A DNA stretch of 64,000 nt from Rhodoferax sp. Lineage in GTDB: Bacteria > Pseudomonadota > Gammaproteobacteria > Burkholderiales > Burkholderiaceae_C. The stretch covers positions 62,001 to 126,000 of the forward strand of contig NZ_JAQURE010000004.1 in assembly GCF_028715765.1 (NCBI RefSeq), in the 5' to 3' direction. The notes below the pieces were generated by a model that did not search any database, had not been told where the DNA came from, and saw only the letters and a program-made list of their open reading frames with translations. Both the position numbers and the translations under genes were made by a program. Positions within the stretch are counted from its first letter, which is position 1. Every line of letters starts with the position of its first letter. Of this stretch, positions 247 through 62,983 are shown piece after piece.

Positions 247-1709
247 GGGGCATCTCCTTCCAGGCTCAGGTTCAGCAGGCTGGCTGATGTGGGGTCTTGA
301 ATCTCCTGCCAGAAGCGTTCCAGCAGATTGCCCAGCACCTGGGTGCGGTAAGCGGCGCTGGCCCGCATGTCAGAAATCGGCTGGAATTCACCGCGCAGGG
401 TGGAGATGGCCTGGCTCAAGCTGGCATGCGCCCAGGGCTGGCCTTGTAACGCCGTCTCGGTTTGCCGGGCGCGTGCCGGGGTGGCCGCCACGCCGCCTGC
501 GCCGATGCTGGCGTGCGCAATGTGGCCGTTCTGAATCTGCAAGTTGATCACCAGGCAGACGGCTGAAATGTCGTCCTCCATGCGCTTGGAGATTTTGTAA
601 GCCCGCAGCTGTTCGCCAGCTTGCGGGCGGGGCACATGCACATAGGCCAGCACCTCATCGGCAGCCAGCAGGTTTTTGCGGTAACCGGTGTAGAAATCTT
701 CCAGCGGCAGTTCTCTGCTGCCATGCACACTCATCAGCACCACGCTGGCACGCAAGGCAATCAGCAGCGGCATGCTGTCGCCAATCGGGGAGCCGTTGGC
801 AATGTTGCCGACCAGCGTGCCAGAGTTGCGCACCGGCAGCCCGGCAAAGCGGCTGAAGAAGCTGTGCAACTGGGGCCGCTCGGCCTCCAGCGCTGCAAAG
901 GCATCGGTCAAGCGCACCGCTGCGCCAATCACGGTGTGGCTGGTGGTGGCCTCGATCTGCCGCAGCTCTGCCACGCGGGTCACATCCAGCACCTGGGCAA
1001 AGTCCATGTGCAACTTGTTGACCCACAGGCCCACATCGGTACAGCCGGCCACGATCTGGGCTTGCGGGTGAGCGGCACGCTGGCTCAGCAAGTTTTCTAG
1101 TGTGAGTGGATTTTTATATGAAAAATTGGCCTCTAGACCAGGTGAATCATGCGCAAGAAGCTCTAATTGTTGTAGCAATTGAACTTCATTCAATGACTGC
1201 TTGGGCAAGTGCTGCATCTGTTGAGCGGCATCCAGAATGGGCCGGTAACCGGTGCAGCGGCACAGGTTGCCCGACAGCGCTTCTTGCGCCACGCTGCGGG
1301 TCACCGGCTGGTCATTCAGCACCTGGTTCTGGTACAGGCCAAACAAGCTCATGGCAAAACCTGGGGTGCAAAAGCCACACTGGCTGGCATGGCACTGGTG
1401 CAAGGCTTGTTGCACCGGGTGGGGTGTCTGGTCTGGCGAGCTCAGATCCGCCGCCGTCCACAAGGCCATGCCGTGAATCGAATGCGCCAGGCGGATGCAA
1501 CTGTTGACTGCCAGATAGCGTATCTGGCCGCCCTGGTTTTCAGCCAGCACCACGGTGCAGGCCCCGCAGTCGCCCTCGTTGCAGCCCTCTTTGGTGGCGC
1601 TGTGGCCCAGGTCTTCGCGCAGCAACTGCAGCAGGGTGCGGGTGGGTGGTACATTGCGCAGCGAGACGATCTCGCCACGCCAGACAAACGTAAGTTCAGG
1701 GTGATTCAT
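243..1709 (-). CDS. xdhA: Xanthine dehydrogenase small subunit (2Fe-2S and FAD domains)
   Basis: The 488-residue protein carries electrons from the molybdenum subunit through two 2Fe-2S clusters to FAD. Plant-type ferredoxin cysteines are visible at about 43, 48, 51 and 71 (GCNEGDCGAC). The second cluster site has cysteines at about 111, 114, 150 and 152 (SQCGFCTPG and CRCTGYRP). The FAD domain follows from about residue 200, with GTLVGNIANGSPIGD. The ATG at 1709 is preferred over a TTG nine bases upstream because homologues begin near MNHPELTF. The linker between the iron-sulfur and FAD domains is encoded by a dispersed repeat. The gene is divergent from the LysR gene at 1803, its probable regulator. 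Confidence 0.93.
   Translation of the reverse strand: MNHPELTFVWRGEIVSLRNVPPTRTLLQLLREDLGHSATKEGCNEGDCGACTVVLAENQGGQIRYLAVNSCIRLAHSIHGMALWTAADLSSPDQTPHPVQQALHQCHASQCGFCTPGFAMSLFGLYQNQVLNDQPVTRSVAQEALSGNLCRCTGYRPILDAAQQMQHLPKQSLNEVQLLQQLELLAHDSPGLEANFSYKNPLTLENLLSQRAAHPQAQIVAGCTDVGLWVNKLHMDFAQVLDVTRVAELRQIEATTSHTVIGAAVRLTDAFAALEAERPQLHSFFSRFAGLPVRNSGTLVGNIANGSPIGDSMPLLIALRASVVLMSVHGSRELPLEDFYTGYRKNLLAADEVLAYVHVPRPQAGEQLRAYKISKRMEDDISAVCLVINLQIQNGHIAHASIGAGGVAATPARARQTETALQGQPWAHASLSQAISTLRGEFQPISDMRASAAYRTQVLGNLLERFWQEIQDPTSASLLNLSLEGDAP
1113..1178 (-). repeat. Dispersed GGCCTCTAG repeat inside xdhA linker
   Basis: This A+T-rich stretch reads AAAAATTGGCCTCTAG, followed by a GCGCAAGAAGCT and TTGTAGCAATT tail. 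That is the order of motifs seen in the other dispersed repeats of this window. It lies in frame within xdhA and encodes about 22 residues between the 2Fe-2S and FAD domains. The copy has diverged from the best copies at 59870 and 44218, so it may be old. Confidence 0.6.
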
Positions 1710-8259: not shown

Positions 8260-9603
8260 ATGAAAGCTTATCGTGCAGCCATTCTTTATTTTTCTGAAAT
8301 CCCGTCGGCAAGCTCTGCAGCTATGCTTGAGTCTGATGGCTTGCTGGTGGTGGGTACCAATGCGCATGGACGCCAGGTGGTGCAAGCGGTGGGCGCTTAC
8401 CGCGATTTACAGCCGCGCTTTGCCCATGTGCCCGTGACCCACTGGCCTGGCCGCATCATTGCCCCAGGGTTTGTCGATGTGCACAGCCACTACCCGCAAA
8501 CGAATGTGATTGGCTCACCTGCCGCAGGCCTGTTGCCGTGGCTTGAAAACTACACTTTTCCAGAAGAAAAACGCTTTCTATCGCCCGAATATGCTGCGCA
8601 AGCAGCTAGATTTTTTATAGCAGAACTGTTGCGCCATGGGGTCACCACCGCGTTGACGTTTGCCACCTCGCACCCGGCATCGGTTGAGGCCATGTTTCAA
8701 GCGGCACAAGCGCAACACATGCGTTTGATCACTGGCTTGTGTCTGATGGATCGGCATGCGCCCGCTGACTTGCTCAACCAGCCCGCACAAGGTGGCAAGC
8801 CAGATGCCACCGCGCAAAGCCTGGTTGACTCAGAAGCCTTGCTGCGCCGTTGGCATGGCGTTGACCGGCTCGGCTATGCCATCACGCCACGCTTTGCACC
8901 CACCAGCAGTGATGCCCAGTTGCGCGGTGCAGGTGAACTGGCTGCCCGCTACCCAGCCGTGTGGATTCAATCGCATGTGGCAGAAAACCTGGCTGAAATC
9001 GCCTGGGCGCGGGCCTTGTTCCCCGCCTCGCGCAGTTACCTGTCCACCTATGCCGACTTTGGCTTGATGCGCGCGCGTGCGGTGTTTGCGCACTGCATTC
9101 ATCTGGATGATGAAGACCGTGCCTTGATGCGCCAGACTGGTGCAGCGGCCGCTGTCTGCCCCACCAGCAATTTGTTTTTGGGCAGCGGTTTTTTTGACTA
9201 TGCCAAGGCCGACGCGGCAGGCATGACCTATGGGTTGGCCAGTGACGTGGGTGGTGGCACCAGCTTCAGCCCGTTTCACACCATGCTGGCCGCCTACTTT
9301 GTGGGACGCGAGGGGCAAACCAAGGCAGGCTTGAGCTTAAGCCCGCAGCACTTGTGGTGGCAGCACACGGCCGGTGCGGCTCAGGCGCTGGGTTTAGACG
9401 GGGTGGTGGGCAACCTGTTGCCGGGTTGCGAGTCTGATTTTGTGGTGCTCAACCCGCAGGCCACGCCACTTCTGGCGCGCAAGACGGCGCTGGCCAACAG
9501 TCTCGATGAGCTGCTGTTTGCCATGATTGTGCTGGGCGATGATCGGCTGGTTGAGAAAACCATCATTTCTCAAGACATTTTGGCTTCTAGCGCCCATGAA
9601 TAA
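8260..9603 (+). CDS. guaD: Guanine deaminase
   Basis: This 447-residue amidohydrolase converts guanine to xanthine and ammonia, feeding xanthine dehydrogenase. The metal site HSH is seen at 75 and 77 (PGFVDVHSHYPQ). Further candidate ligands are His near 239 (QSHVAEN), His near 278-281 (AHCIHL) and Asp near 329 (ASDVGGGTSFS). The motif CPTSNLFLGSGFFDY is typical of the guanine deaminase branch. The last residues and the stop codon come from a dispersed repeat, so the native C-terminus may have been replaced. Two genes away lies the probable purine importer. Confidence 0.92.
   Translation: MKAYRAAILYFSEIPSASSAAMLESDGLLVVGTNAHGRQVVQAVGAYRDLQPRFAHVPVTHWPGRIIAPGFVDVHSHYPQTNVIGSPAAGLLPWLENYTFPEEKRFLSPEYAAQAARFFIAELLRHGVTTALTFATSHPASVEAMFQAAQAQHMRLITGLCLMDRHAPADLLNQPAQGGKPDATAQSLVDSEALLRRWHGVDRLGYAITPRFAPTSSDAQLRGAGELAARYPAVWIQSHVAENLAEIAWARALFPASRSYLSTYADFGLMRARAVFAHCIHLDDEDRALMRQTGAAAAVCPTSNLFLGSGFFDYAKADAAGMTYGLASDVGGGTSFSPFHTMLAAYFVGREGQTKAGLSLSPQHLWWQHTAGAAQALGLDGVVGNLLPGCESDFVVLNPQATPLLARKTALANSLDELLFAMIVLGDDRLVEKTIISQDILASSAHE
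8597..8626 (+). repeat. Short AGCAGCTAGATTTTTTATAGC repeat-like segment in guaD
   Basis: This segment contains GCGCAAGCAGCTAG followed by a T-run and ATAGC, which resembles half of the dispersed repeat. It is in frame inside guaD and encodes part of an AAQAARFFIAELL helix. It is short, and chance or ordinary coding sequence cannot be excluded. Confidence 0.35.
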
Positions 9604-9635
9604 AGCGTGAGTAGCTATGATTTTTATAATATAAT
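9580..9635 (+). repeat. Dispersed repeat copy at the 3' end of guaD
   Basis: The segment reads GGCTTCTAGCGCCCATGAA, then TAAAGCGTGAGTAGCTATG and an A+T tail. It closely matches the copy at 59870-59934. It encodes the last residues of guanine deaminase and its TAA stop, and its A+T tail carries TATAAT-like sequence ahead of dcd. Confidence 0.75.
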
Positions 9636-15901: not shown

Positions 15902-15978
<77 letters not shown>

Positions 15979-15995
15979 TTCAATTCTCGTGATCT

Positions 15996-16072
15996 CTGCC
16001 CGTAGCTCAGTTGGATAGAGCAACAGCCTTCTAAGCTGTGGGTCGGGGGTTCGATCCCCTCCGGGCAGACCA
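15996..16072 (+). tRNA. tRNA-Arg (anticodon TCT)
   Basis: This 77-base tRNA includes an encoded CCA end. The acceptor stem CTGCCCG pairs with CGGGCAG. The anticodon arm CAGCC-TTCTAA-GCTG shows TCT, and GGGGGTTCGATCCCC forms the T arm. It lies 17 bp downstream of tRNA-Pro and is probably cotranscribed with it. Confidence 0.96.
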
Positions 16073-16901: not shown

Positions 16902-19061
<2,160 letters not shown>

Positions 19062-20261: not shown

Positions 20262-20666
20262 GTGCGCTATCTGCTCGACACAAATATCTGCATCTATGCC
20301 ATGAAGCACCACCCTAGCGTGTTGCGCCGAATGCAACAGGCCAGGCATGATGGCTTGTGCGTCAGCGCCATTGTGGCCGCAGAGCTGGCTTTTGGTGTGG
20401 CTCGAAGTGCTGTGGTGCATCGTGAGAAAAATGAAGCCTCACTGAAACGGTTTTTAGCCGCCATTGCCGTGCAGCCTTGGCCGTCGGACGCGATCTGGGT
20501 TTACGGTGAACATCGACAAGCGCTCAAGCAAGCCGGAACGCCGATTGGGGAACTTGATTTGTTGATTGCCGCACACGCACAGTCGCTAGGTTTGACCTTG
20601 GTTACCAACAACACCCGCGAGTTTGAGCGTATCGAGGGTTTGAAGCTGGAGAACTGGGTTGTTTGA
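20262..20666 (+). CDS. vapC: VapC-type PIN toxin
   Basis: This 134-residue PIN-domain endoribonuclease toxin opens with [14 protein letters not shown], containing the first catalytic Asp. [17 protein letters not shown] supplies the conserved Glu, [22 protein letters not shown] the later Asp, and REFERIEGL completes the family pattern. The GTG at 20262 has GAGG six bases upstream; a TTG at 20250 overlapping the vapB stop is the alternative. Its 3' end overlaps the start of meaB by 8 bp, which is unusual and suggests that insertion of this module reshaped the meaB 5' end. Confidence 0.9.
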
Positions 20667-21657
20667 CACGATTCTCAACGCCGAGCCGATGCGGCAACGC
20701 CGTGCCATGGCCAAAGCCATCACGTTGCTGGAATCCACCCGCGCCGACCACCGACTGCAAGCCGATGAGTTGCTGACAGCTTTGTTGCCGCACACCGGCA
20801 AGTCTTTCCGGCTGGGCATCAGCGGCGTGCCGGGAGTGGGCAAATCCACCTTCATTGAAGCGCTGGGGTTGTATCTGATCCAGCAAGGCCACCGGGTGGC
20901 GGTGCTGGCGGTTGACCCCAGCAGCACAGTGTCGGGCGGCTCCATCTTGGGTGATAAAACCCGCATGGAAATGCTCTCGGTGCATGAAAAAGCCTACATT
21001 CGCCCCAGCCCCAGCAGTGGCACCTTGGGTGGTGTGGCAGAGAAAACCCGCGAGGCCATGTTGGTCTGTGAGGCCGCTGGGTATGACGTGGTGATTGTTG
21101 AGACGGTGGGGGTGGGGCAGTCAGAAACTGCCGTGGCCAACATGACCGACATGTTTGTGCTGATGCAGTTGCCCAATGCAGGCGACGATTTGCAAGCCAT
21201 CAAAAAAGGTGTGATGGAGCTGGCTGACCTGGTCGTCATCAACAAAGTTGACCTCGACCCTGATGCCGCCACCCGCGCCCGAGCCCAAATCACCTCCAGC
21301 TTGCGGCTGCTGGGCTTGCACGGCAACCCTGATCACATGCACCATGACACCGCCATTTGGCACCCGCAAGTGATTCAGCTCAGCGCCTTGCATGCCCAAG
21401 GGGTAGACAGTTTTTGGGCCAAAGTGCTTGAATTCAAAAACCTTCAGGCTACCAATGGCAAATGGGACACACGCCGCCAAAAGCAAGCGCTGGCCTGGAT
21501 GTGGGAGCGCATTGATGCCGGTTTGAAACAAGCGTTTGCCCAGCACCCCGCGGTGAAAGACCTGCTGCCCAAATTGACCCAAGACGTGCTTGAAGGCCGC
21601 TTGGCTGCTTCTACTGCTGCAAGAAATATGCTTGCAGCACAGATGAATAAAGCGTAA
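20659..21657 (+). CDS. meaB: MeaB/ArgK-type GTPase chaperone of methylmalonyl-CoA mutase
   Basis: This G3E GTPase of 332 residues protects and reloads B12-dependent methylmalonyl-CoA mutase. Walker [10 protein letters not shown] is at about residues 56-64, [19 protein letters not shown] near 85, [12 protein letters not shown] near 150 and NKVD near 195. The only early in-frame start is a TTG overlapping the vapC stop; an ATG at 20689 would remove ten more residues. The N-terminus therefore looks shortened compared with ArgK. The stop codon lies in a dispersed repeat. Confidence 0.9.
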
Positions 21658-21690
21658 GCCACTATTTTTTTCATAGTAAATTTAATTTTC
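21641..21690 (+). repeat. Dispersed repeat copy at the 3' end of meaB
   Basis: GATGAATAAAGCGTAAGCCACTA is a close match in two pieces to the GAATAAAGCGT and TAGCTA part of the copy at 59870. It is followed by a T-run and CATAGTAAATTTAATTTTC. It encodes the last residues of MeaB and its TAA stop. Confidence 0.65.
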
Positions 21691-23248: not shown

Positions 23249-23318
23249 GTCATTGCGGGACAGACCGCAGTTACACGAAGTGAACCAGCTCTGTCCTCAA
23301 CATTCTAGGAAAAACAAC

Positions 23319-25367
23319 ATGTTTAAAAAAATCCTGATCGCCAACCGTGGCGAGATCGCTTGCCGTGTCATCACCACGGCGAAAAAAATGGGTATCCAAA
23401 CCGTGGCGGTGTATTCCGATGCCGACAAAGATGCCCGCTTTGTGCTGCTGGCCGACGAAGCTGTCAACATTGGCCCGGCCCCCAGCCGCGAAAGCTATTT
23501 GGTGGCTGACAAAATCATTGCTGCCTGCAAGCAGACCGGTGCCGAGGCACTGCACCCTGGCTACGGCTTTTTGAGCGAAAACGCCGATTTTGCCAAACGT
23601 GTGGAAGAAGAAGGCATTGTCTTCATCGGCCCCAAGCACTACTCCATGGCCGCCATGGGCGACAAGATCGAGTCCAAAAAACTCGCTGGCAGTGCCGGTG
23701 TCAATTGCATTCCCGGCGTCAACAGCGCCATTGAAACCGCTGAAAAAGCCGTGGAAATTGCCCAGGGCATTGGTTACCCGGTCATGATCAAAGCCAGCGC
23801 CGGCGGCGGTGGCAAGGGTTTGCGTGTGGCCTATAACGACAAAGAAGCGTTCGAGGGCTTCACCAGCTGCCGCAACGAAGCCCGCAACAGTTTTGGCGAC
23901 GACCGCGTGTTTGTCGAAAAGTTTGTGGAAGAGCCCCGCCACATTGAGATTCAACTCATTGGCGACAGCTTTGGCAACGTGGTTTACCTCAATGAGCGGG
24001 AATGTTCCATTCAGCGCCGTCACCAAAAAGTGATTGAAGAAGCCCCCAGCCCGTTCATCAGCGATGCCACCCGCAAAGCCATGGGCGAGCAAGCCGTGGC
24101 GCTGGCCAAAGCGGTCAAGTACCAAAGCGCTGGCACGGTGGAGTTTGTGGTTGGCAAAGACCAGTCTTTCTACTTTCTGGAAATGAACACCCGCCTGCAG
24201 GTGGAGCACCCGGTCACTGAATGCATCACCGGGCTCGACTTGGTGGAGCTGATGATCCGTGTGGCGGCCGGCGAAAAACTGCCCATGACCCAAGCCGAGG
24301 TCAAACGCAACGGCTGGGCCATGGAGTGCCGCATCAACGCCGAAGACCCGTTTCGCAACTTCTTGCCCTCCACCGGTCGCCTGGTGCGTTTTGCCCCACC
24401 AGCACAAACCATGGCGCAAGCCAACACCACCGACTGGCTGGGGGTGCGGGTTGACACCGGCGTGCAAGACGGTGGCGAAATTCCGATGTATTACGACTCG
24501 ATGATCGCCAAGCTGATCGTGCATGGCACCGACCGGTTGGACGCCATTGCCAAGATGCGCGAAGCGCTCAACGGTTTTGTCATTCGCGGCATCAGCAGCA
24601 ACATCCCGTTCCAGGCAGCGTTGCTGGCGCACCCCAAGTTTGTGGCAGGCAACTTCAACACCGGGTTCATTGCCGAGCACTATGCCCACGGTTTCAAGGC
24701 TGAAGACGTGCCGCACGAAGACCCGCAGTTCATGCTGGCGCTGGCGGCTTTTGTGCGCCGCAAGTCACGCGAACGCGCTGCCAGCCTCACCGGGCAGTTG
24801 CCTGGTTATGCCGTCAACATTGGCAGCGACTATGTGGTGGTCTCTTTGGGCGAAAGCGGCACCAATGCCTACACCCCGGTGCATGTCGATGAATTTGCAG
24901 GCAAAACCGGCTTTGCGCGCATCAAAATAGGCGCAAGTAGCTATGAAATTTGTAGTGATTCACGGCTCAATGAGATTTGTATCACTGGCACGGTCAACGG
25001 TACGCCGTTCACTGCCCAAGTGGAGCGTGGCACGCCCAAAAACCCACTGGCGCTGCGCTTGCAGCACAACGGCACCCGCATAGACGTGCTGGTGGTGTCC
25101 AAACGCATGGCCGAGTTGCACACCTTGATGCCATTCAAAGCGCCGCCAGACATGAGCCGCTATGTGCTCTCGCCCATGCCGGGTTTGCTGGTAGACGTGG
25201 CGGTGCAAGTGGGGCAAAAAGTGCAGGCCGGTGAGCGCGTGGCCGTGATTGAAGCCATGAAGATGGAAAACGTGCTGTTTGCCGCCGCCGACGGCGTGGT
25301 GGGCAAGGTGCTCGCTGCCAAGGGCGAGAGCTTGACCGTAGACCAGCCGATTGTGGAGTTTGCATGA
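23319..25367 (+). CDS. pccA: Propionyl-CoA carboxylase alpha subunit (biotin carboxylase and carrier)
   Basis: This 682-residue protein has a biotin carboxylase domain ([17 protein letters not shown] at the start, [13 protein letters not shown] near residue 160, [14 protein letters not shown] near 290). A middle BT-like linking domain and a C-terminal biotinyl domain with EAMKMEN follow; the biotinylated lysine is near 648, 35 residues from the end. The start at 23319 gives the normal family N-terminus and has an AGGAAAA site. A repeat-like segment (24924-24960) lies in the linking domain. The stop overlaps the epimerase-like gene (ATGA). Confidence 0.95.
24924..24960 (+). repeat. Repeat-like segment inside pccA
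   Basis: AAAATAGGCGCAAGTAGCTATGA followed by AATTTGTAG resembles the GCGCAAGTAGCTATGA arm of the dispersed repeat, here split into two quoted pieces for length: AAAATAGGCGCAAG and TAGCTATGA. It is in frame and encodes [11 protein letters not shown] in the BT linking region. Confidence 0.5.
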
Positions 25368-28232: not shown

Positions 28233-28946
28233 TCACGCCATGGCCCAGCGTGCAGCATGTGTGGCATGCAATGTGGTGGTGTCAAACAGCGGCACGGCGC
28301 AATCTTGTGGACGAACCAGCATGGCGATTTCGGTGCAGCCCAGAATGACAGCTTGCGCACCTTGCGCTTGCAGGTTGGCGATGATCTGTTGGTACGCGTG
28401 GCGGGAGGCGTCTTGCACTTTGCCCAAGCACAGCTCGTCAAAAATGATGCGGTGCACAGCGTCGCGCTCAGGCTGGGGTGGCGTCAACACCGTCAGGCCA
28501 TGGGTGTTTTCCAGCCGGCTGCGGTAAAAGTCTTGCTCCATGGTGAAGCGGGTGCCCAGCAGCCCCACGGTGTGAAACCCAGCCGCCTTGATGGCCTGTG
28601 CGGTGGGGTCGGCAATGTGCAGCAACGGGATGGGGATGCCGGCTTGGACTTCATCGGCCAGCTTGTGCATGGTGTTGGTGCAAATCACCAGCGCCTGCGC
28701 GCCAGCATGGGCCAGGTTTTGCGCGATGGTGGTGAGCTGCACGGCGGCTTTGTCCCACTGGTTGCTGCGTTGAAGCTCGGCTATGTCGGCAAAGTCCACG
28801 CTGTGTAACAGCAGCTTGGCCGAGTGCAGCCCGCCCAGTTTGGCTTGGATGGTGCGGTTGATGATTTGGTAATAGGGCACGGTTGATTCCCAGCTCATGC
28901 CGCCGATCAAGCCCAGGGTTTTGAGGTAGAGTGCATTGTTTTTCAT
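28233..28946 (-). CDS. Aspartate/glutamate racemase family protein
   Basis: This is a 237-residue cofactor-independent racemase. Both catalytic cysteines are present in the family context: VICTNTMHKL near residue 86 and VILGCTEIAML near 205. The opening LGLIGGMSWESTVPYYQ is the signature of the aspartate racemase / YgeA branch, so broad-specificity amino acid racemisation is likely. It is read in the same direction as the aminotransferase and LysE exporter, and its start codon lies at the edge of a dispersed repeat. Confidence 0.88.
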   Translation of the reverse strand: MKNNALYLKTLGLIGGMSWESTVPYYQIINRTIQAKLGGLHSAKLLLHSVDFADIAELQRSNQWDKAAVQLTTIAQNLAHAGAQALVICTNTMHKLADEVQAGIPIPLLHIADPTAQAIKAAGFHTVGLLGTRFTMEQDFYRSRLENTHGLTVLTPPQPERDAVHRIIFDELCLGKVQDASRHAYQQIIANLQAQGAQAVILGCTEIAMLVRPQDCAVPLFDTTTLHATHAARWAMA

Positions 28947-28996
28947 AGCTTTTCACGCTTTATTGATAAGGGCTAGAGGCCAATTTGTTATGTAAA
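28939..28996 (-). repeat. Dispersed repeat copy between racemase and LysE genes
   Basis: On the plus strand it reads TTTTTCATAGC, TTTTCACGCTTTATTGATAAG, then GGCTAGAGGCCAATTTG. This is a full-length reverse-orientation match to the copy at 59870. It fills almost the whole gap between the two genes and supplies the ATG context of the racemase gene. Confidence 0.8.
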
Positions 28997-29789: not shown

Positions 29790-31283
29790 TTGATGACTTT
29801 GGTGAAATCTGCGGCGCAGCCGCTGGCACAACAACTGGCTGAGCGGTTTGCCCAGCGCATTCGCTCGCGCTTGCTGGCACCTGGCACGCGCTTGCCCTCG
29901 GTACGCCAGTGCGCGCAGCAGCAGGGTGTGAGCCCCAGCACGGTGGTGGCAGCCTATGACCGCTTGCTGGCGCAAGGGCTGATCGAGGCGCAGAAAAACC
30001 GTGGGTTTTATACAAGAAATCAGGCTCTACCGCCCGTCGTACAAGCGCTAGCAGCTATTGAAAACGAAGCAAGTGGGCTTATCTCTGCAGCGCAACACAG
30101 CGCAGTGGGTGCGTTGCCACTGGACTTGCCCCCTGTTTTGCCCCATGTGCCCGTGGACGCTGCAGCGCTGATTCGTGGCATGTTCTACGCACCAGGTGGG
30201 CGTGCGCAACCTGGCATGGGGGCGTTTCCGTCAGAGTGGCTGGCGTCGAACTTCATGGCGGCGGCATTGCGGCGCTTTTGCACAACTTCTGCGCTCAACG
30301 CCGCATCGTTGCACTATGGTGAGCCAGCGGGTGATGTGAGCTTGCGTGAGGCCGTGGCGGCGCGGCTGAACACCCTTGGCATTGCGGCGGGTGCGGGTCA
30401 GGTCATCACCACGCTGGGCGCCACGCATGCGCTGGACATCATCAGCCGCACGCTGCTGCGCCCGGGCGACTGTGTGATGGTCGAAGAACCCGGCTGGGCG
30501 GTTGAATTTGCCCGGTTGGATGCCTTGGGCATGCGCATCTTGCCTGTGCCGCGGGGTGTTGAGGGGCCTGACCTGGAGGTGATGGCGCGCATGTGTGAGC
30601 TGCACCAGCCCAAACTGTTTGTCAGCGTGAGTGTGTTTCACAACCCCACCGGCTATTGCTTGAGTGCAGCGCATGCGCACCGGGTGTTGCAACTGGCGCA
30701 CCGTTATGCGTTTGAGGTGGTGGAGGATGACACTTACAGCCACATTGCCCCAGACCACGCCACCCGGGTGTGCGCGTTGGATGGTCTGGAGCGCAGCATT
30801 TATGTCAGCGGGTTTGCCAAAATTTTGGCACCTGGCTGGCGCGTGGGCTACCTGGCCGCGCCACCGCGGCTGGTCGAGCGCTTGCTTGACACCAAGCTGC
30901 TGGGCACCCTGACTACCCCGGCCTTGTTTGAGAAAGCACTGGCCTGGTGCATGACCCAAGGCCAACTGCGCCGCCACGCCTTGCAACTGCGCACCCGGCT
31001 AGACCTGGCGCGCAGCCGCAGTGTGGCGCTGGCGCTGCAGGCGGGTTGCCAGTTTGCCTCACCCCCAGCGGGTTTGTTTGGTTGGGTTGACACCGGCGTG
31101 GATACTGACAAATTGGCGCTGCGCATGCTGGATGTGGGCTACTTGCTGGCTCCTGGCGCTTTGTTTCATGCCAACCACGCCCCCAGCACGCTGATGCGTA
31201 TCAACTTTTGCACCACGCAAGATGCGCAGTTTTGGCAGGTGTTTGAAGCAGCGCGTGCCGAGCTGGCGCGTAAGGGCTTGTAA
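29790..31283 (+). CDS. MocR-type transcriptional regulator (GntR domain plus aminotransferase domain)
   Basis: This 497-residue chimera has an N-terminal GntR winged helix (AQQLAERFAQRIRSRLLAPG, then SPSTVVAAYDRLLAQGLIEA, residues 13-75). A linker encoded partly by a dispersed repeat follows, then a fold-type I aminotransferase domain with HNPTGY and GFAKILAPGWRVG; the PLP lysine is near 344. MocR proteins sense PLP or amino acid derivatives and regulate neighbouring genes. The divergent LysE exporter is the obvious target. Whether the domain is still catalytic cannot be told. Confidence 0.92.
   Translation: MMTLVKSAAQPLAQQLAERFAQRIRSRLLAPGTRLPSVRQCAQQQGVSPSTVVAAYDRLLAQGLIEAQKNRGFYTRNQALPPVVQALAAIENEASGLISAAQHSAVGALPLDLPPVLPHVPVDAAALIRGMFYAPGGRAQPGMGAFPSEWLASNFMAAALRRFCTTSALNAASLHYGEPAGDVSLREAVAARLNTLGIAAGAGQVITTLGATHALDIISRTLLRPGDCVMVEEPGWAVEFARLDALGMRILPVPRGVEGPDLEVMARMCELHQPKLFVSVSVFHNPTGYCLSAAHAHRVLQLAHRYAFEVVEDDTYSHIAPDHATRVCALDGLERSIYVSGFAKILAPGWRVGYLAAPPRLVERLLDTKLLGTLTTPALFEKALAWCMTQGQLRRHALQLRTRLDLARSRSVALALQAGCQFASPPAGLFGWVDTGVDTDKLALRMLDVGYLLAPGALFHANHAPSTLMRINFCTTQDAQFWQVFEAARAELARKGL
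30046..30073 (+). repeat. Repeat-derived segment in the MocR linker
   Basis: This is the same CAAGCGCTAGCAGCTATTGA-AAA run as in scpA at 18416. It is in frame and encodes [11 protein letters not shown] in the linker between the DNA-binding and aminotransferase domains. Confidence 0.6.
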
Positions 31284-34904: not shown

Positions 34905-36110
34905 ATGACTCCTTCACATCCGCCTTTGATGGGTTTGGCACGCCTGATGCGCATGGCGTTCGATGGCAACAGCTTGATGCCGCTGGCCGAAACCTTCAAG
35001 GCGCGCGCCGAGGCCGACCCACAAGACGCCAACGCGTTGATGGACTTGTCGATTGCACTGCAGCTGCATGGCCTGCGCGAGCAGGGGCTGGCGGTGTTGA
35101 CCTTGGCGCTGGCCAGCAGCCGCGTCTATGAATTGCCAGCGCAGCGGCTAGCCACTGTGCGCTTGCTGGCCATCATGGGGCCAGGTGACTTGATGGCCAA
35201 TGCGCCGTTGGCGTTTTTGCTGGAAGACGCAGACATTTCACTCACCTTGTTTTACCTGCTGCCGGGCGAGCCCATGCCAACGCAGTTGCCCGAGCATGAT
35301 GTGGTGATGATTGCCATGTCGGAGACGCGCCAAAATCACCCGCTATTGGTGCAGCTCACGGAAGCGGTGAAGTCTTGGCTCAAGCCGCTGGTGGTGCGCC
35401 CCGAGGCCATTTTGCGCACCTCACGCGAGAGCGCTTACACCTTGCTCAAAGACCTGCCGGGGGTGTATGTACCACCCACCAAGCAAGCCACTCGTGCGGC
35501 ACTGCAAGCCTTATGCAATGGGCAGCACGCGCTGCAAGAGGTGCTGCCACAGGGGGCGTTCCCCCTCATCATTCGCCCGCTGGATTCGCATGCTGGGCAT
35601 GGGCTTGAAAAAGTGGCCGATCTGGCAGCCCTGCAGCAGTACCTGGCTGGCAGCTCAGATGATACGTTTTTCATAGCATCTTATGCAGACTACGCAAGCG
35701 CTGACGGCCTGTTTCGCAAATACCGGGTGGTGCTGGTGGACGGCGTGCCATTTGCCGGGCACATGGGGGTGTCGAGCCACTGGATGATTCATTACCTCAA
35801 CGCTGGCATGGTTGACAGTGCTGAAAAACGTGCTGAAGAAGCCGCCTTTATGCGTGATTTTGAGACTGATTTTGCCCGCCGCCATGCGCAGGCGCTCAGC
35901 CAGGTGCACGCGCGGTTGGGGCTGGACTATGCGGTGATGGACTGCGCTGAAACGGCTGCGGGCGACTTGTTTGTGTTTGAAGTGGACTCTGGTGCGGTGG
36001 TGCACTCCATGGACCCCGTAGACCTGTTTCCCTACAAAGTGCCTGCCATGAACAAAGTGTTTGAGGCATTTCAAGCCATGCTCAAACGCCGTGCTGGGGG
36101 GCTGCGTTGA
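34905..36110 (+). CDS. TPR / ATP-grasp domain protein, unknown function
   Basis: This 401-residue protein has an N-terminal TPR-like helical part (ADPQDANALMDLSIALQLHG, then EQGLAVLTLALASS, residues 30-75). A C-terminal region resembles ATP-grasp ligases: PLIIRPLDSHAGHGLEKV near 223, FRKYRVVLVDGVPFAGHMGVS near 268 and the metal-binding-like DLFVFEVDSGAVVHSMDP near 351. ATP-grasp enzymes join a carboxylate to an amine using ATP, so it could ligate a decarboxylation product to an amino acid. It lies 29 bp after the decarboxylase and abuts the next gene. The start at 34905 was chosen over an in-frame ATG overlapping the decarboxylase. Confidence 0.7.
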   Translation: MTPSHPPLMGLARLMRMAFDGNSLMPLAETFKARAEADPQDANALMDLSIALQLHGLREQGLAVLTLALASSRVYELPAQRLATVRLLAIMGPGDLMANAPLAFLLEDADISLTLFYLLPGEPMPTQLPEHDVVMIAMSETRQNHPLLVQLTEAVKSWLKPLVVRPEAILRTSRESAYTLLKDLPGVYVPPTKQATRAALQALCNGQHALQEVLPQGAFPLIIRPLDSHAGHGLEKVADLAALQQYLAGSSDDTFFIASYADYASADGLFRKYRVVLVDGVPFAGHMGVSSHWMIHYLNAGMVDSAEKRAEEAAFMRDFETDFARRHAQALSQVHARLGLDYAVMDCAETAAGDLFVFEVDSGAVVHSMDPVDLFPYKVPAMNKVFEAFQAMLKRRAGGLR

Positions 36111-43562: not shown

Positions 43563-44288
43563 TTAGAACGGTAAAAAGCTGAAAAAGAACCGTGTTAACC
43601 AGCCAACTGTTTGCGCTTCGGCCTGCGCACCGCGACCTTTGGACTCCATGCGGGCATTGGCCACCTGGGTGGAGTTGATCAAATTGCCGGGTTGAATCAG
43701 GCGCGGGTCAACCGTGCCGCTGAACCGCATCACGTCCACGTTTTGGTTCACGCCAATTTGTTTGTCACCGGCCACCAGCAAATGGCCATTGGGCAGCACC
43801 TCCACCACGGTGGCGGTGATGGTGCCGTAAAAGGTGTTGGCGCTTTCGGTGCCACCTTTGCCAGAAAAGTCACTGGCCGAGCCGGAGGTAATGCCTGCTT
43901 TGAGGTTGGCCAAGTCCAGCGGTGACTGAATCGGAAAGGCGCTGATGCTGGCCGAGCCTGAGGTGGTGCGGTTGGCGGTGGATTTGGAAACCTGGCTGGC
44001 GGTGACTTTCTCCACGATGTTGATGGTGATGTTGTCTCCCACGGTGCGGGCGCGCGGGTCTTCAAAAGCCGGGCGGTAGCTGGCTTTTTGGTACAAGCTG
44101 CCGGTGCTGGGCACTGGCGCGGCAGGTGCTGCAGCTACAGGCCTGGCATGGGTGGTTTCAGGAAAGTCGACCGCCACCGTTTGCGGCAGCGAATTGCAGC
44201 CTGTCAGACTACCAAATGCTATTAAATAAATAGCTGTTTGCGCATATTTTATAAGCGCTAGAGGCCTATTTCTTATATAAGTTTTCAT
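43563..44288 (-). CDS. flgH: Flagellar L-ring lipoprotein FlgH, signal peptide encoded by a repeat
   Basis: This 241-residue outer-membrane lipoprotein forms the L ring. The lipobox SLTGC has its cysteine at 31. The mature part contains YRPAFEDPRARTVGDNITINIVEKVTAS-type wording and the C-terminal GWLTRFFFSFLPF. Codons 3-22 of the signal peptide (RNRPLALIKYAQTA) are a copy of the dispersed repeat, and no good ribosome-binding site precedes the ATG. Translation may rely on coupling with flgG, whose stop lies 15 bp upstream. Confidence 0.95.
   Translation of the reverse strand: MKTYIRNRPLALIKYAQTAIYLIAFGSLTGCNSLPQTVAVDFPETTHARPVAAAPAAPVPSTGSLYQKASYRPAFEDPRARTVGDNITINIVEKVTASQVSKSTANRTTSGSASISAFPIQSPLDLANLKAGITSGSASDFSGKGGTESANTFYGTITATVVEVLPNGHLLVAGDKQIGVNQNVDVMRFSGTVDPRLIQPGNLINSTQVANARMESKGRGAQAEAQTVGWLTRFFFSFLPF
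44218..44284 (-). repeat. Dispersed repeat copy forming the 5' end of flgH
   Basis: On the plus strand it reads GCTATTAAATAAATAGCTG, TTTGCGCATATTTTATAAGC and GCTAGAGGCCTATTTC. It has all motifs of the repeat in order (ATAGCT, GCGC, ATAAGCGCTAGAGGCC). It is one of the best-preserved copies and is fully translated within the FlgH leader. Confidence 0.85.
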
Positions 44289-59858: not shown

Positions 59859-59869
59859 AAATATTGATA

Positions 59870-59934
59870 AAAATGGCCTCTAGCGCTTATGAATAAAGCG
59901 TGACTAGCTATTTTAAATATAGCTTAATGCAGCA
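59870..59934 (+). repeat. Dispersed repeat, best-preserved intergenic copy
   Basis: It reads AAAATGGCCTCTAGCGCTTA, TGAATAAAGCGTGACTAGC and TATTTTAAATATAGCTTAA. The core AGCGCTTATGAATAAAGCGT can fold on itself. It lies between flhC and motA, and the flhC stop codon falls at its right end. It is used here as the reference copy. Confidence 0.85.
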
Positions 59935-61925: not shown

Positions 61926-62983
61926 TGCCTATGAAGGGTGCTTTTTGGCATGGCAAGCGCGTATTGGTCACTGGCCACACAGGATTCAAAGGGGCTTGGC
62001 TGGCTTTGTGGTTGCAAAAGCTGGGTGCAGAGGTGATGGGTGTGGCGCTACCACCCAGCACCGAACCCAGCTTGTATGCGCTACTTTCCAAGCAGCCTTG
62101 GATCAACAGTCAGATGTGCGACATCAGAGATGCACAAACGTTGATCCAATGCGTTCAGGCGTTGCGTCCAGAAATTGTGTTTCATTTGGCTGCGCAAGCG
62201 CTGGTGCGTCCTAGCTATCAAAACCCCTTGGAAACCTTTTCCACCAATGTGATGGGCACTGCAAACGTGCTTGAAGCTGTCAAGGGCACGGATTCGGTGC
62301 GTGTGGTTGTTGCAGTGACCACCGACAAGGTTTATCAAAACCGGGAGTGGTACTACCCCTACCGGGAAGACGATGCACTGGGCGGACACGACCCTTACAG
62401 TGCCAGCAAAGCTGCTTGCGAGATTGTTATTGCCAGTTACCGTGCTTCATTTTTTGAAGCATCTGGTGTGGCATTGGCAAGCGCCAGAGCCGGTAATGTG
62501 ATGGGTGGCGGTGACTGGTCGACCGACCGTTTGTTGCCCGATGCCGTTCGCGCCTGGCAAGCCAAACAACCCTTGGTCATTCGCAATCCGCTAGCCACAC
62601 GCCCTTGGCAACATGTGCTGGAGCCCTTGGCTGGCTATTTGAGCTTGGCAGAAAAATTGTGGGTGCAACCTGATTTGGCTGGCGCTTACAACTTTGGACC
62701 TGCACCCAGCGAGGCAGCGACCGTCAAAAAAGTCATCGAATTGGCCTCTAGGCCTTATGAATACTGCGTAACTCGCTATGAAATATGTAATTCAAATCTT
62801 CATGAGGCAAATTGGTTGGCATTAGAAACAGCCAAATCCAATGCGACCCTTGGCATCCATCCACGTTGGTCACTCGCAGACTCGGTATTGAAAACCATGT
62901 CTTGGTATCGGGCGCAACATGAAGGCGCAGATGCACGCAAACTGTGCATGGCAGACATTGAGCAATTTGAGGCGCAGGCATGA
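61925..62983 (+). CDS. rfbG: CDP-glucose 4,6-dehydratase
   Basis: This 352-residue short-chain dehydrogenase converts CDP-glucose to CDP-4-keto-6-deoxyglucose. The NAD site VTGHTGFKGAWLALWLQ is near residue 15. VTTDKVYQNREW holds the catalytic Thr/Asp/Lys region, YSASKAACE the Tyr158/Lys162 pair, and ARAGNVMGGGDWSTDRLLPD the substrate part. A dispersed repeat copy is translated in frame near residues 272-290. The stop overlaps the epimerase gene (ATGA). Confidence 0.94.
   Translation: MPMKGAFWHGKRVLVTGHTGFKGAWLALWLQKLGAEVMGVALPPSTEPSLYALLSKQPWINSQMCDIRDAQTLIQCVQALRPEIVFHLAAQALVRPSYQNPLETFSTNVMGTANVLEAVKGTDSVRVVVAVTTDKVYQNREWYYPYREDDALGGHDPYSASKAACEIVIASYRASFFEASGVALASARAGNVMGGGDWSTDRLLPDAVRAWQAKQPLVIRNPLATRPWQHVLEPLAGYLSLAEKLWVQPDLAGAYNFGPAPSEAATVKKVIELASRPYEYCVTRYEICNSNLHEANWLALETAKSNATLGIHPRWSLADSVLKTMSWYRAQHEGADARKLCMADIEQFEAQA
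62738..62795 (+). repeat. Dispersed repeat copy inside rfbG
   Basis: GAATTGGCCTCTAGGCCTTA, TGAATACTGCGTAACTCGC and TATGAAATATG follow the same order as the reference copy. It is in frame and encodes ELASRPYEYCVTRYEIC in the C-terminal part of the dehydratase. Confidence 0.75.

Follow-up and report, generated by a model that had tools for sequence, protein, structure and literature searches.

A dispersed motif of two half-sites in Rhodoferax and other Comamonadaceae with features of an uptake-signal-like sequence

Results

Motif copies in the window

The window, a 64,000-nucleotide stretch of a 3.41-Mb Rhodoferax genome (G000), carries copies of a motif of ~60 bp within genes, across gene ends and between genes. 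Using a profile that was built from 30 copies and then iterated, we identified 12 solid copies, in place of the fourteen sites in 64 kb counted in a preliminary description of this DNA.

1119..1176, + strand: motif copy, 43.3 bits; in a xanthine-dehydrogenase-type gene (243-1709, - strand), between the [2Fe-2S] and FAD domains
8568..8621, + strand: weak motif copy, 24.4 bits; in an amidohydrolase gene (8323-9603, + strand), ungapped in 7 orthologs compared
9574..9628, + strand: motif copy, 43.7 bits; includes the stop codon of the amidohydrolase gene
18401..18445, + strand: motif copy without the left flank, 23.9 bits; in a methylmalonyl-CoA mutase gene (MutB)
21622..21676, + strand: motif copy, 28.3 bits; across the end of a gene (20659-21657, + strand)
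24925..24955, + strand: right-half motif copy, 19.9 bits; in a propionyl-CoA carboxylase alpha-type gene
28940..28990, - strand: motif copy with a GCCC left arm, 43.5 bits; between genes, overlapping the first bases of a gene (28233-28946, - strand)
30015..30069, + strand: motif copy, 35.8 bits; in a MocR-type regulator gene, between the GntR and aminotransferase domains
35663..35717, - strand: motif copy, 25.9 bits; in a TPR_20-matching gene (34929-36110, + strand)
44218..44275, - strand: strongest copy of the window, 52.3 bits; intergenic
59869..59923, + strand: motif copy where the preliminary description placed one, 49.5 bits; between genes, directly adjoining the stop codon of a gene called on the minus strand
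62737..62789, + strand: motif copy, 39.2 bits; in a sugar epimerase/dehydratase gene (61931-62983, + strand), in its 3' part

All seven sites previously ranked best were recovered, at 28-52 bits. Four of the seven sites described as partial also held up (8568, 18401, 24925 and 30015; 20-36 bits), whereas 12450 was weak (9.9 bits) and 10418 and 50270 fell below 8 bits, although short motif-resembling pieces can be read at both; the copy at 35663-35717 had been overlooked. That most sites overlap coding sequence proved correct in the window, with seven of the 12 copies wholly within called genes, three across a gene end and two intergenic. The 1119..1176 copy, which is ungapped against G003 and G006, two genomes classed as element-free (a class defined by a one-dialect pattern with 2 mismatches and backed by the profile for G003 alone, over 300 kb), is also present in G010, G024 and G004. 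The copy at 30015..30069 recurs in G010, G013 and G024, and the G010 ortholog at 35663..35717 has the same length without the motif.

An Rfam scan of the window returned two tRNAs and no other family; two tRNA genes stand in tandem at 15902-16069. Another dispersed repeat, ~49 bp long and intergenic, lies at 23253-23301, with many ~85-98% matches in G003, G007, G013 and G024 and one in G010.

A real and dense repeat family

Searching 462 kb of G000 with the profile yielded 73 matches at E<0.01 and 76 non-overlapping copies at ≥12 bits. The preliminary description had proposed a comparison with shuffled sequence of the same composition; Markov sequences of order 1, 3 and 5 gave 0-1 matches at 12 bits, and G003, of the same genus, gave 0 at 12 bits and 1 at 10 bits in the 300 kb searched. 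The family is therefore real, with matches far above both controls at the same cut-off. G010 contained 14 profile matches in 100 kb and 223 copies at 14 bits in 1.3 Mb, or 172 per Mb, and by extrapolation the whole of G000 holds ~560 copies.

With ≤2 mismatches, the core GGCCTCTAGCGCTTAT occurs near-exactly 187 times in the 3.41 Mb, 95 times forward and 92 times reverse, against 1 occurrence of a reversed control pattern; with ≤3 mismatches, the window has 5 occurrences of it, where 0.15 would be expected. Because these counts far exceed expectation and the reversed control, a chance origin is excluded, and the claim of a very dense family lying in either orientation is borne out. Such over-representation and dispersal in both orientations are expected of uptake sequences such as DUS and USS. 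Spacing along contigs C1 and C2 was no different from random in an evenness test.

Motif architecture and dialects

The motif comprises an A+T flank, the half-site RGCYKCTWGCGC, an 11-bp A+T spacer, the half-site GCGCWAGMRGCY and a further A+T flank, each half-site being 12 bp long. Aligned copies follow one plan, with TTATA in the A+T flank, AAAT, the half-site GGCCTCTAGCGC, the spacer TTATgaAtaAA, the half-site GCGCaAGCAGCT and then ATTaAATTtATAGC. The alignment sets held 99 copies from G000, including loci picked for an exact core, 55 from G010, including stretches picked around matches, and 28 from G024. In the consensus alignment, information is near zero on either side of the motif; 24 columns of ≥1 bit are spread over 59, and ~56-58 bits over 91 columns, rather than being gathered in a short core of 9-12 bp. 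All 99 G000 copies have C37 and G49.

The core had been called self-complementary, and half-site 1 does match half-site 2, read in reverse complement, at 8 of 12 positions, but the stem pairs hardly covary. Among G000 copies, one arm changes independently of the other (31 single changes and 1 double at pair 36-50), and in the stem register only the near-loop pair 40-46 covaries (z 4.1); a conserved hairpin with compensatory changes, as looked for in REP/RAYT elements, was not found among these copies. An RNA hairpin was considered and rejected, since five of six folds were unremarkable (z -0.8 to 0.1; one copy reached -14.4 kcal/mol, z -1.9) and covariation was limited to the one near-loop pair.

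Between genomes the arms differ jointly, forming lineage dialects as in DUS and USS: CGC/GCG arms in G000 and G010, and CCC/GGG in most G024 copies. Among 119 matches listed in named genomes, the arm combinations were 72 GC, 20 CG and 27 hybrid, the fourth kind being absent (Fisher 4e-10, uncorrected for the relatedness of the genomes). Because the arms vary independently within G000 yet differ jointly between genomes, our reading is that the motif is recognized as double-stranded DNA and not as a hairpin.

A dyad of half-sites set 11 bp apart and flanked by A+T, with arms that differ together between genomes, would also suit sites of a putative dimeric chromosome-organising or nucleoid protein; spread-out sites would be selected and so arise in place, and a shift in specificity would give dialects. 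SlmA, Noc and MatP sites are precedents for spread-out chromosomal binding sites. We regard this explanation, the main rival of the uptake-signal reading presented in the Discussion, as less likely than not, in view of evidence on orientation and density given below.

Placement relative to genes and replicons

In the 462-kb sample, with genes called by a simple purpose-made caller, 34 of the 76 copies lie wholly inside genes, 10 cross a gene end and 32 are intergenic, a distribution at odds with the extragenic location of REP/RAYT elements; coding DNA, at a fraction of ~0.855, is under-used by the copies. Fourteen of the 34 inside copies are oriented opposite to the host gene, and 15 of the 20 on the gene's own strand use the single consensus frame that is free of stop codons.

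Divergent gaps are avoided by intergenic copies (1/37, P about 0.0004-0.002), an avoidance of promoter gaps that would also fit a chromosome-organising protein. Among co-directional intergenic copies, 16 of 28 lie ≤10 nt from the upstream stop codon and 4 lie ≤10 nt from the next start, against 7.4 expected in either case (the mean of random placement, for the stop codons); the copies listed near a stop codon number 36. The excess past stop codons, along with the single fold of -14.4 kcal/mol, could point to a transcript 3'-end element, an inverted repeat that ends or protects messages and has the coding copies as by-products. We consider this very improbable, given the number of copies inside genes and their frequent opposite orientation, a consensus without a T-run after the stem, the z-scores of the five other folds and compensatory stem changes limited to one clear near-loop pair.

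Replication-linked polarity was dropped as a candidate: in 65 G010 stretches, 125 of 223 copies pointed along the leading strand as deduced from GC skew, although the 1-2 Mb section alone gave 37 to 13. The lack of a clear orientation rule on the G010 chromosome also speaks against sites of a chromosome-organising protein.

A single consensus query matched 1 of 72,556 plasmid records and 0 of 50,697 phage records; the lone plasmid copy, from a Diaphorobacter replicon, overlaps cobN at its end. In IMG/VR, 20 stretches bore the exact pattern. Within the plasmid and phage collections searched, the motif is rare in foreign DNA, as expected of DUS and USS. The stretch 1-50000 of contig C3 in G000 (L045-L047) has the appearance of an acquired island, with 63-64% G+C, against 57-58% in C1, C2 and the window, and no motif copy.

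Positional stability

For 32 of the 34 G000 copies (≥20 bits) with a G010 ortholog, a motif match (≥7 bits) was found at the same place, and in the reverse comparison 34 of 36 G010 copies were matched at the orthologous place in G000; flank identity between the two genomes is ~82%. Eleven ortholog pairs that are not wholly coding, from a comparison that dropped copies with indels against the profile, showed identities of 0.845 in conserved columns, 0.63 in variable columns and 0.46 in flanks, the agreement expected of two unrelated copies being 0.782 in conserved and 0.347 in variable columns. These shared places and identities indicate that the copies are old, fixed in position and held near the consensus, although the maintenance argument is weakened by 0.845 being only slightly above 0.782. 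Stable positions would likewise be consistent with sites of a chromosome-organising protein.

Copies apparently formed in place and signs of insertion

Of 36 coding copies, 14 had an ortholog among six genomes that have at most one near-exact core, and nine of these 14 were ungapped in every element-free comparison. Ungapped alignments with element-free orthologs were obtained for AroE (5/5; 46.8 bits), an RNB exoribonuclease (6/6), xanthine dehydrogenase (2/2), MutB (3/3) and the amidohydrolase (3/3). The MutB motif segment also aligns ungapped with mitochondrial methylmalonyl-CoA mutase (PDB 8gju_J, which we take to be the human enzyme), and AroE against 3o8q_A shows one 2-residue gap in the motif and a 3-residue gap ahead of it. 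Where gaps within the motif occur, they span 1-13 residues, often in linkers. The test counted gaps ≤2 codons from a copy and thus misses a 15-bp difference near C2 50918 and the full 81 bp of total extra length at the coding copy of C2 30747, which could include a whole motif copy; the gltB copy lies outside the counted comparisons, and two of the three comparisons for the 24925 copy, with only 55-59% flank identity, may involve paralogs.

Motif segments were ungapped in 28 of 49 comparisons, compared with 218 of 245 random windows of the same alignments, so the motif does occupy more variable segments; residue identity is 50% within the motif and 76% in the flanks. From these alignments, several within-gene copies appear to have formed by rewriting existing DNA and not by insertion. 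True insertions are visible by this method, as an 81-bp insertion in the RNB gene of G000, absent in 8 relatives (L050 8111-8191 = C3 108111-108191), shows up. That insertion is a different, G+C-rich repeat, possibly BRE-like, with many loci in G030, G016 and G007 among the matches listed.

At ten non-coding or gene-end sites, six were shorter by 32-111 bp in element-free relatives (the aroB-dgt gap by 54-55 bp); of the other four, one was 8-18 bp shorter, the RAYT end and 21622 agreed in length to within 5 bp, and the last was ~300-400 bp different. This comparison is biased, in that a gap must have room for the motif and one comparison omitted gaps outside -20 to 400 bp. The shorter relatives are compatible with insertion at some sites, and the length differences vary widely, 0 included, with no fixed value.

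In ten genomes, including G016 with its one near-exact core, a DprA loop that precedes VGSRNPTPQG is ~20 codons longer than in most element-free genomes. It is motif-encoded in several genomes, recognisably so in G000, G010, G005, G004, G011 and G020 (19.7-37.5 bits) and faintly in G002 and G014; the loop is not long in G013, a genome with the motif at other loci, and is of intermediate length in element-free G003. A second motif match lies ~650 bp further on, on the opposite strand, in six of the ten genomes.

Near-duplicate copies with shared flanks form 8 pairs in G010 against 0.6 permuted. In G000, 27 pairs reach ≥80% identity, no excess over a mean of 17.8 and a maximum of 30 in 100 column permutations; an excess similarity of G000 copies seen with simple PWM draws vanished after stratifying by copy strength, and G010 stayed outside the permuted range. 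Oppositely oriented motif pairs 74-215 bp apart with shared surroundings, perhaps a duplicated composite unit, occur in G010 (L066, L068, L069), and a ~135-150 bp imperfect inverted repeat at L050 4416-4566 has many copies in G024. Because of the DprA loop, the longer intergenic sites and the G010 near-duplicates, some duplication or insertion probably happens.

These observations could be accommodated by a REP-like non-autonomous element that was moved by the genus's RAYT-type Y1 transposase and is now mostly old and fixed. A Y1_Tnp match is present in 22 of 22 genus genomes searched, and in G000 the stop codon of the RAYT gene is overlapped by a motif copy whose position is shared by a copy in G010. 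Closeness to stop codons, the greater length of several intergenic sites and of dprA, and the near-duplicates of G010 would all be in keeping with such an element. We nonetheless hold it to be improbable. Orthologous RAYT genes are found in G003 and G006, both without a near-exact core, so that the repeat does not track RAYT, and the RAYT-end copy is matched by equal-length sequence (within 2 bp) in G003, G006 and G019; the ungapped coding copies, the scant covariation of the stem, the copies inside genes and the almost nil turnover between G000 and G010 also count against it. The Y1-type RAYT-like gene itself (L056 5145-5849) lies in the same neighbourhood in G000, G010, G003, G006 and G019, apparently through vertical inheritance.

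The mobile origin with a mobiliser that the preliminary description implied is thus not supported for coding copies, in view of 9 of 14 ungapped coding copies, length differences without a fixed value, stable positions and no excess of near-identity in G000. Measured against the in-place origin of DUS and USS, the picture is mixed: nine of the 14 coding copies are ungapped and the rest gapped, and dprA and 6 of 10 non-coding sites are longer.

Distribution across genomes and competence genes

The attribution of the family to the Comamonadaceae was upheld, as the named carriers among the matches listed are nearly all members. A scan of named genomes returned at least 119 matching stretches, and 80 of these, from which carrier names were taken, include Acidovorax, Rhodoferax, Comamonas, Giesbergeria, Simplicispira and Extensimonas among the matches listed, as well as Comamonadaceae/Burkholderiaceae assemblies, uncultured beta-proteobacteria and one Gammaproteobacteria-labelled assembly. 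Across 36 genus genomes, near-exact cores range from 0 to 197, with none in 8, 1-3 in 10 and ≥6 in 18.

In a DprA tree, bearers and non-bearers are interleaved, and the starred branches require three or more switches between the two states. G003 and G021, an element-free pair, fall within the mostly bearing half, from which it is likely that element-free lineages lost the motif. In most element-free genomes, the orthologous sites score somewhat higher than random (per-genome mean percentile 0.43-0.92), reflecting either faint remnants or pre-adapted sequence.

ComEC and PilM are each present in 35 of 36 genus genomes and DprA in 21 of 22, and because these proteins are nearly universal in the genus, an uptake machinery could exist. 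As causes of patchiness, ComEC, DprA, PilM, ComP_DUS and GspH were rejected, since none splits bearers from non-bearers; a ComP_DUS match occurs in 30 of 36 genus genomes, bearers and non-bearers alike. The bearers G008, G011, G013, G020 and G031 gave no ComP_DUS and no GspH match (of these, four are incomplete and G013 is split into 440 contigs), and no receptor candidate for the motif was found among the proteins searched in the genus genomes.

Sites of a chromosome-organising protein would have to reconcile a heavy load, namely ~160-170 sites per Mb of ~60 bp each with amino-acid changes in core enzymes, with the 18 of 36 genus genomes that have just 0-3 near-exact cores, and no candidate protein was found for them.

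Discussion

The most likely reading, to which we assign a probability of roughly 0.4, is that the motif is an uptake-signal-like sequence, because the in-place copies, the dialects, the stable positions, the scarcity in foreign DNA and the patchy presence together match described DUS behaviour. The motif would behave as a long double-stranded DNA recognition site and less as a transposon, arising and persisting in place, within genes at weakly constrained protein stretches and between genes just past stop codons. Competent Comamonadaceae cells may bind and take up DNA with their own dialect, and recombination would spread and maintain the motif, as with Neisseriaceae DUS and Pasteurellaceae USS. 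By analogy with these systems, we infer a protein reader of the motif and a role in DNA uptake.

Several observations run counter to the uptake reading. The motif is long and dyad-like rather than a short core, and a dyad suits a dimeric protein. Avoidance of divergent gaps and placement at stop codons are unpredicted by uptake alone. Competence genes occur in element-free relatives too, which leaves the patchiness unexplained, and motif segments are gapped more often than random windows, with longer sites in dprA and at 6 of 10 non-coding comparisons.

Pasteurellaceae USS have a 9-bp core plus an A+T-rich flank and are not dyads, and, to our knowledge, known uptake sequences lack a dyad. The present motif resembles USS in its core and A+T flank, genome-wide occurrence and family-level distribution, and differs in being long and dyad-like; in the accounts available, the USS receptor is still a predicted one. 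REP sequences are palindrome-like, lie near stop codons and have a RAYT gene in the genome, all of which the motif shares; it is set apart from them by its hardly covarying stem, 34 of 76 copies in genes, little turnover and the RAYT gene in element-free genomes too.

In the available text of PMC2397512 and PMC3630211, new DUS are described where homologs show nothing DUS-like, for which the authors invoke recombination; recently acquired genes are without DUS, DUS dialects exist, and known uptake sequences have short cores of 9-12 bp (PMC3630211). Like Neisseriaceae DUS as described there, the motif has many copies in and between genes, homologs without similar sequence at several coding copies, dialects and absence from recently acquired DNA. 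Unlike the motif, with its ~60 bp, two half-sites and putative uptake role, those DUS are 10-12 bp long, recognised by ComP and demonstrated to act in uptake. BRE, in the text available (PMC3110155), are 75-91 bp long, average 69% G+C in Bordetella, have ≤29 copies in the table and are often in tandem; they too are dispersed in beta-proteobacteria including Comamonadaceae, with some copies in coding sequence, whereas the present motif is A+T-rich and far more numerous.

In the accessible text of a 2017 report (PMC5217627), GCTTAT(N)5AAGCG appears as a potential new motif of Acidovorax ebreus to which no function is given; that genome has 114 copies of the pair, 107 of them intergenic (94%; 44 convergent, 4 divergent and 59 co-oriented). 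Most motif pairs, 140, were in Rhodoferax ferrireducens T118, and these presumably belong to the present family. The A. ebreus pair is the literal centre of the present motif, and as far as that text goes the report covers the core only, the full motif, in-place origin, dialects, numerous coding copies and function all lying beyond it. From the same text, ATAGCT(N)22CAAAAG of Polaromonas naphthalenivorans has ATAGCT in common, and no position on the present motif was found for it. In our literature search, with subscription journals mostly outside its reach, neither the complete motif nor its origin in place or its dialects were the subject of any paper found, and no paper combined 'DNA uptake sequence' with Comamonadaceae or contained the core string.

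In-place rewriting of host genes by spreading sequences is, as far as we know, limited to the uptake sequences of two families. We tentatively propose that Comamonadaceae may have a third, independently evolved system of self-DNA recognition, with a long, dyad-symmetric, dialect-forming motif, in-place rewriting, wholesale loss in some Rhodoferax and a putative dimeric reader. A long two-half-site motif with dialects, and with rich and free close relatives, would allow a direct test of the need for a receptor, the speed of decay after loss and the cost to proteins. Were it instead the site of a chromosome protein, the density of such long sites would be unusual. In both cases, default annotation as mobile DNA is unwarranted, and core-enzyme protein alignments in carrier bacteria bear the footprint of the motif.
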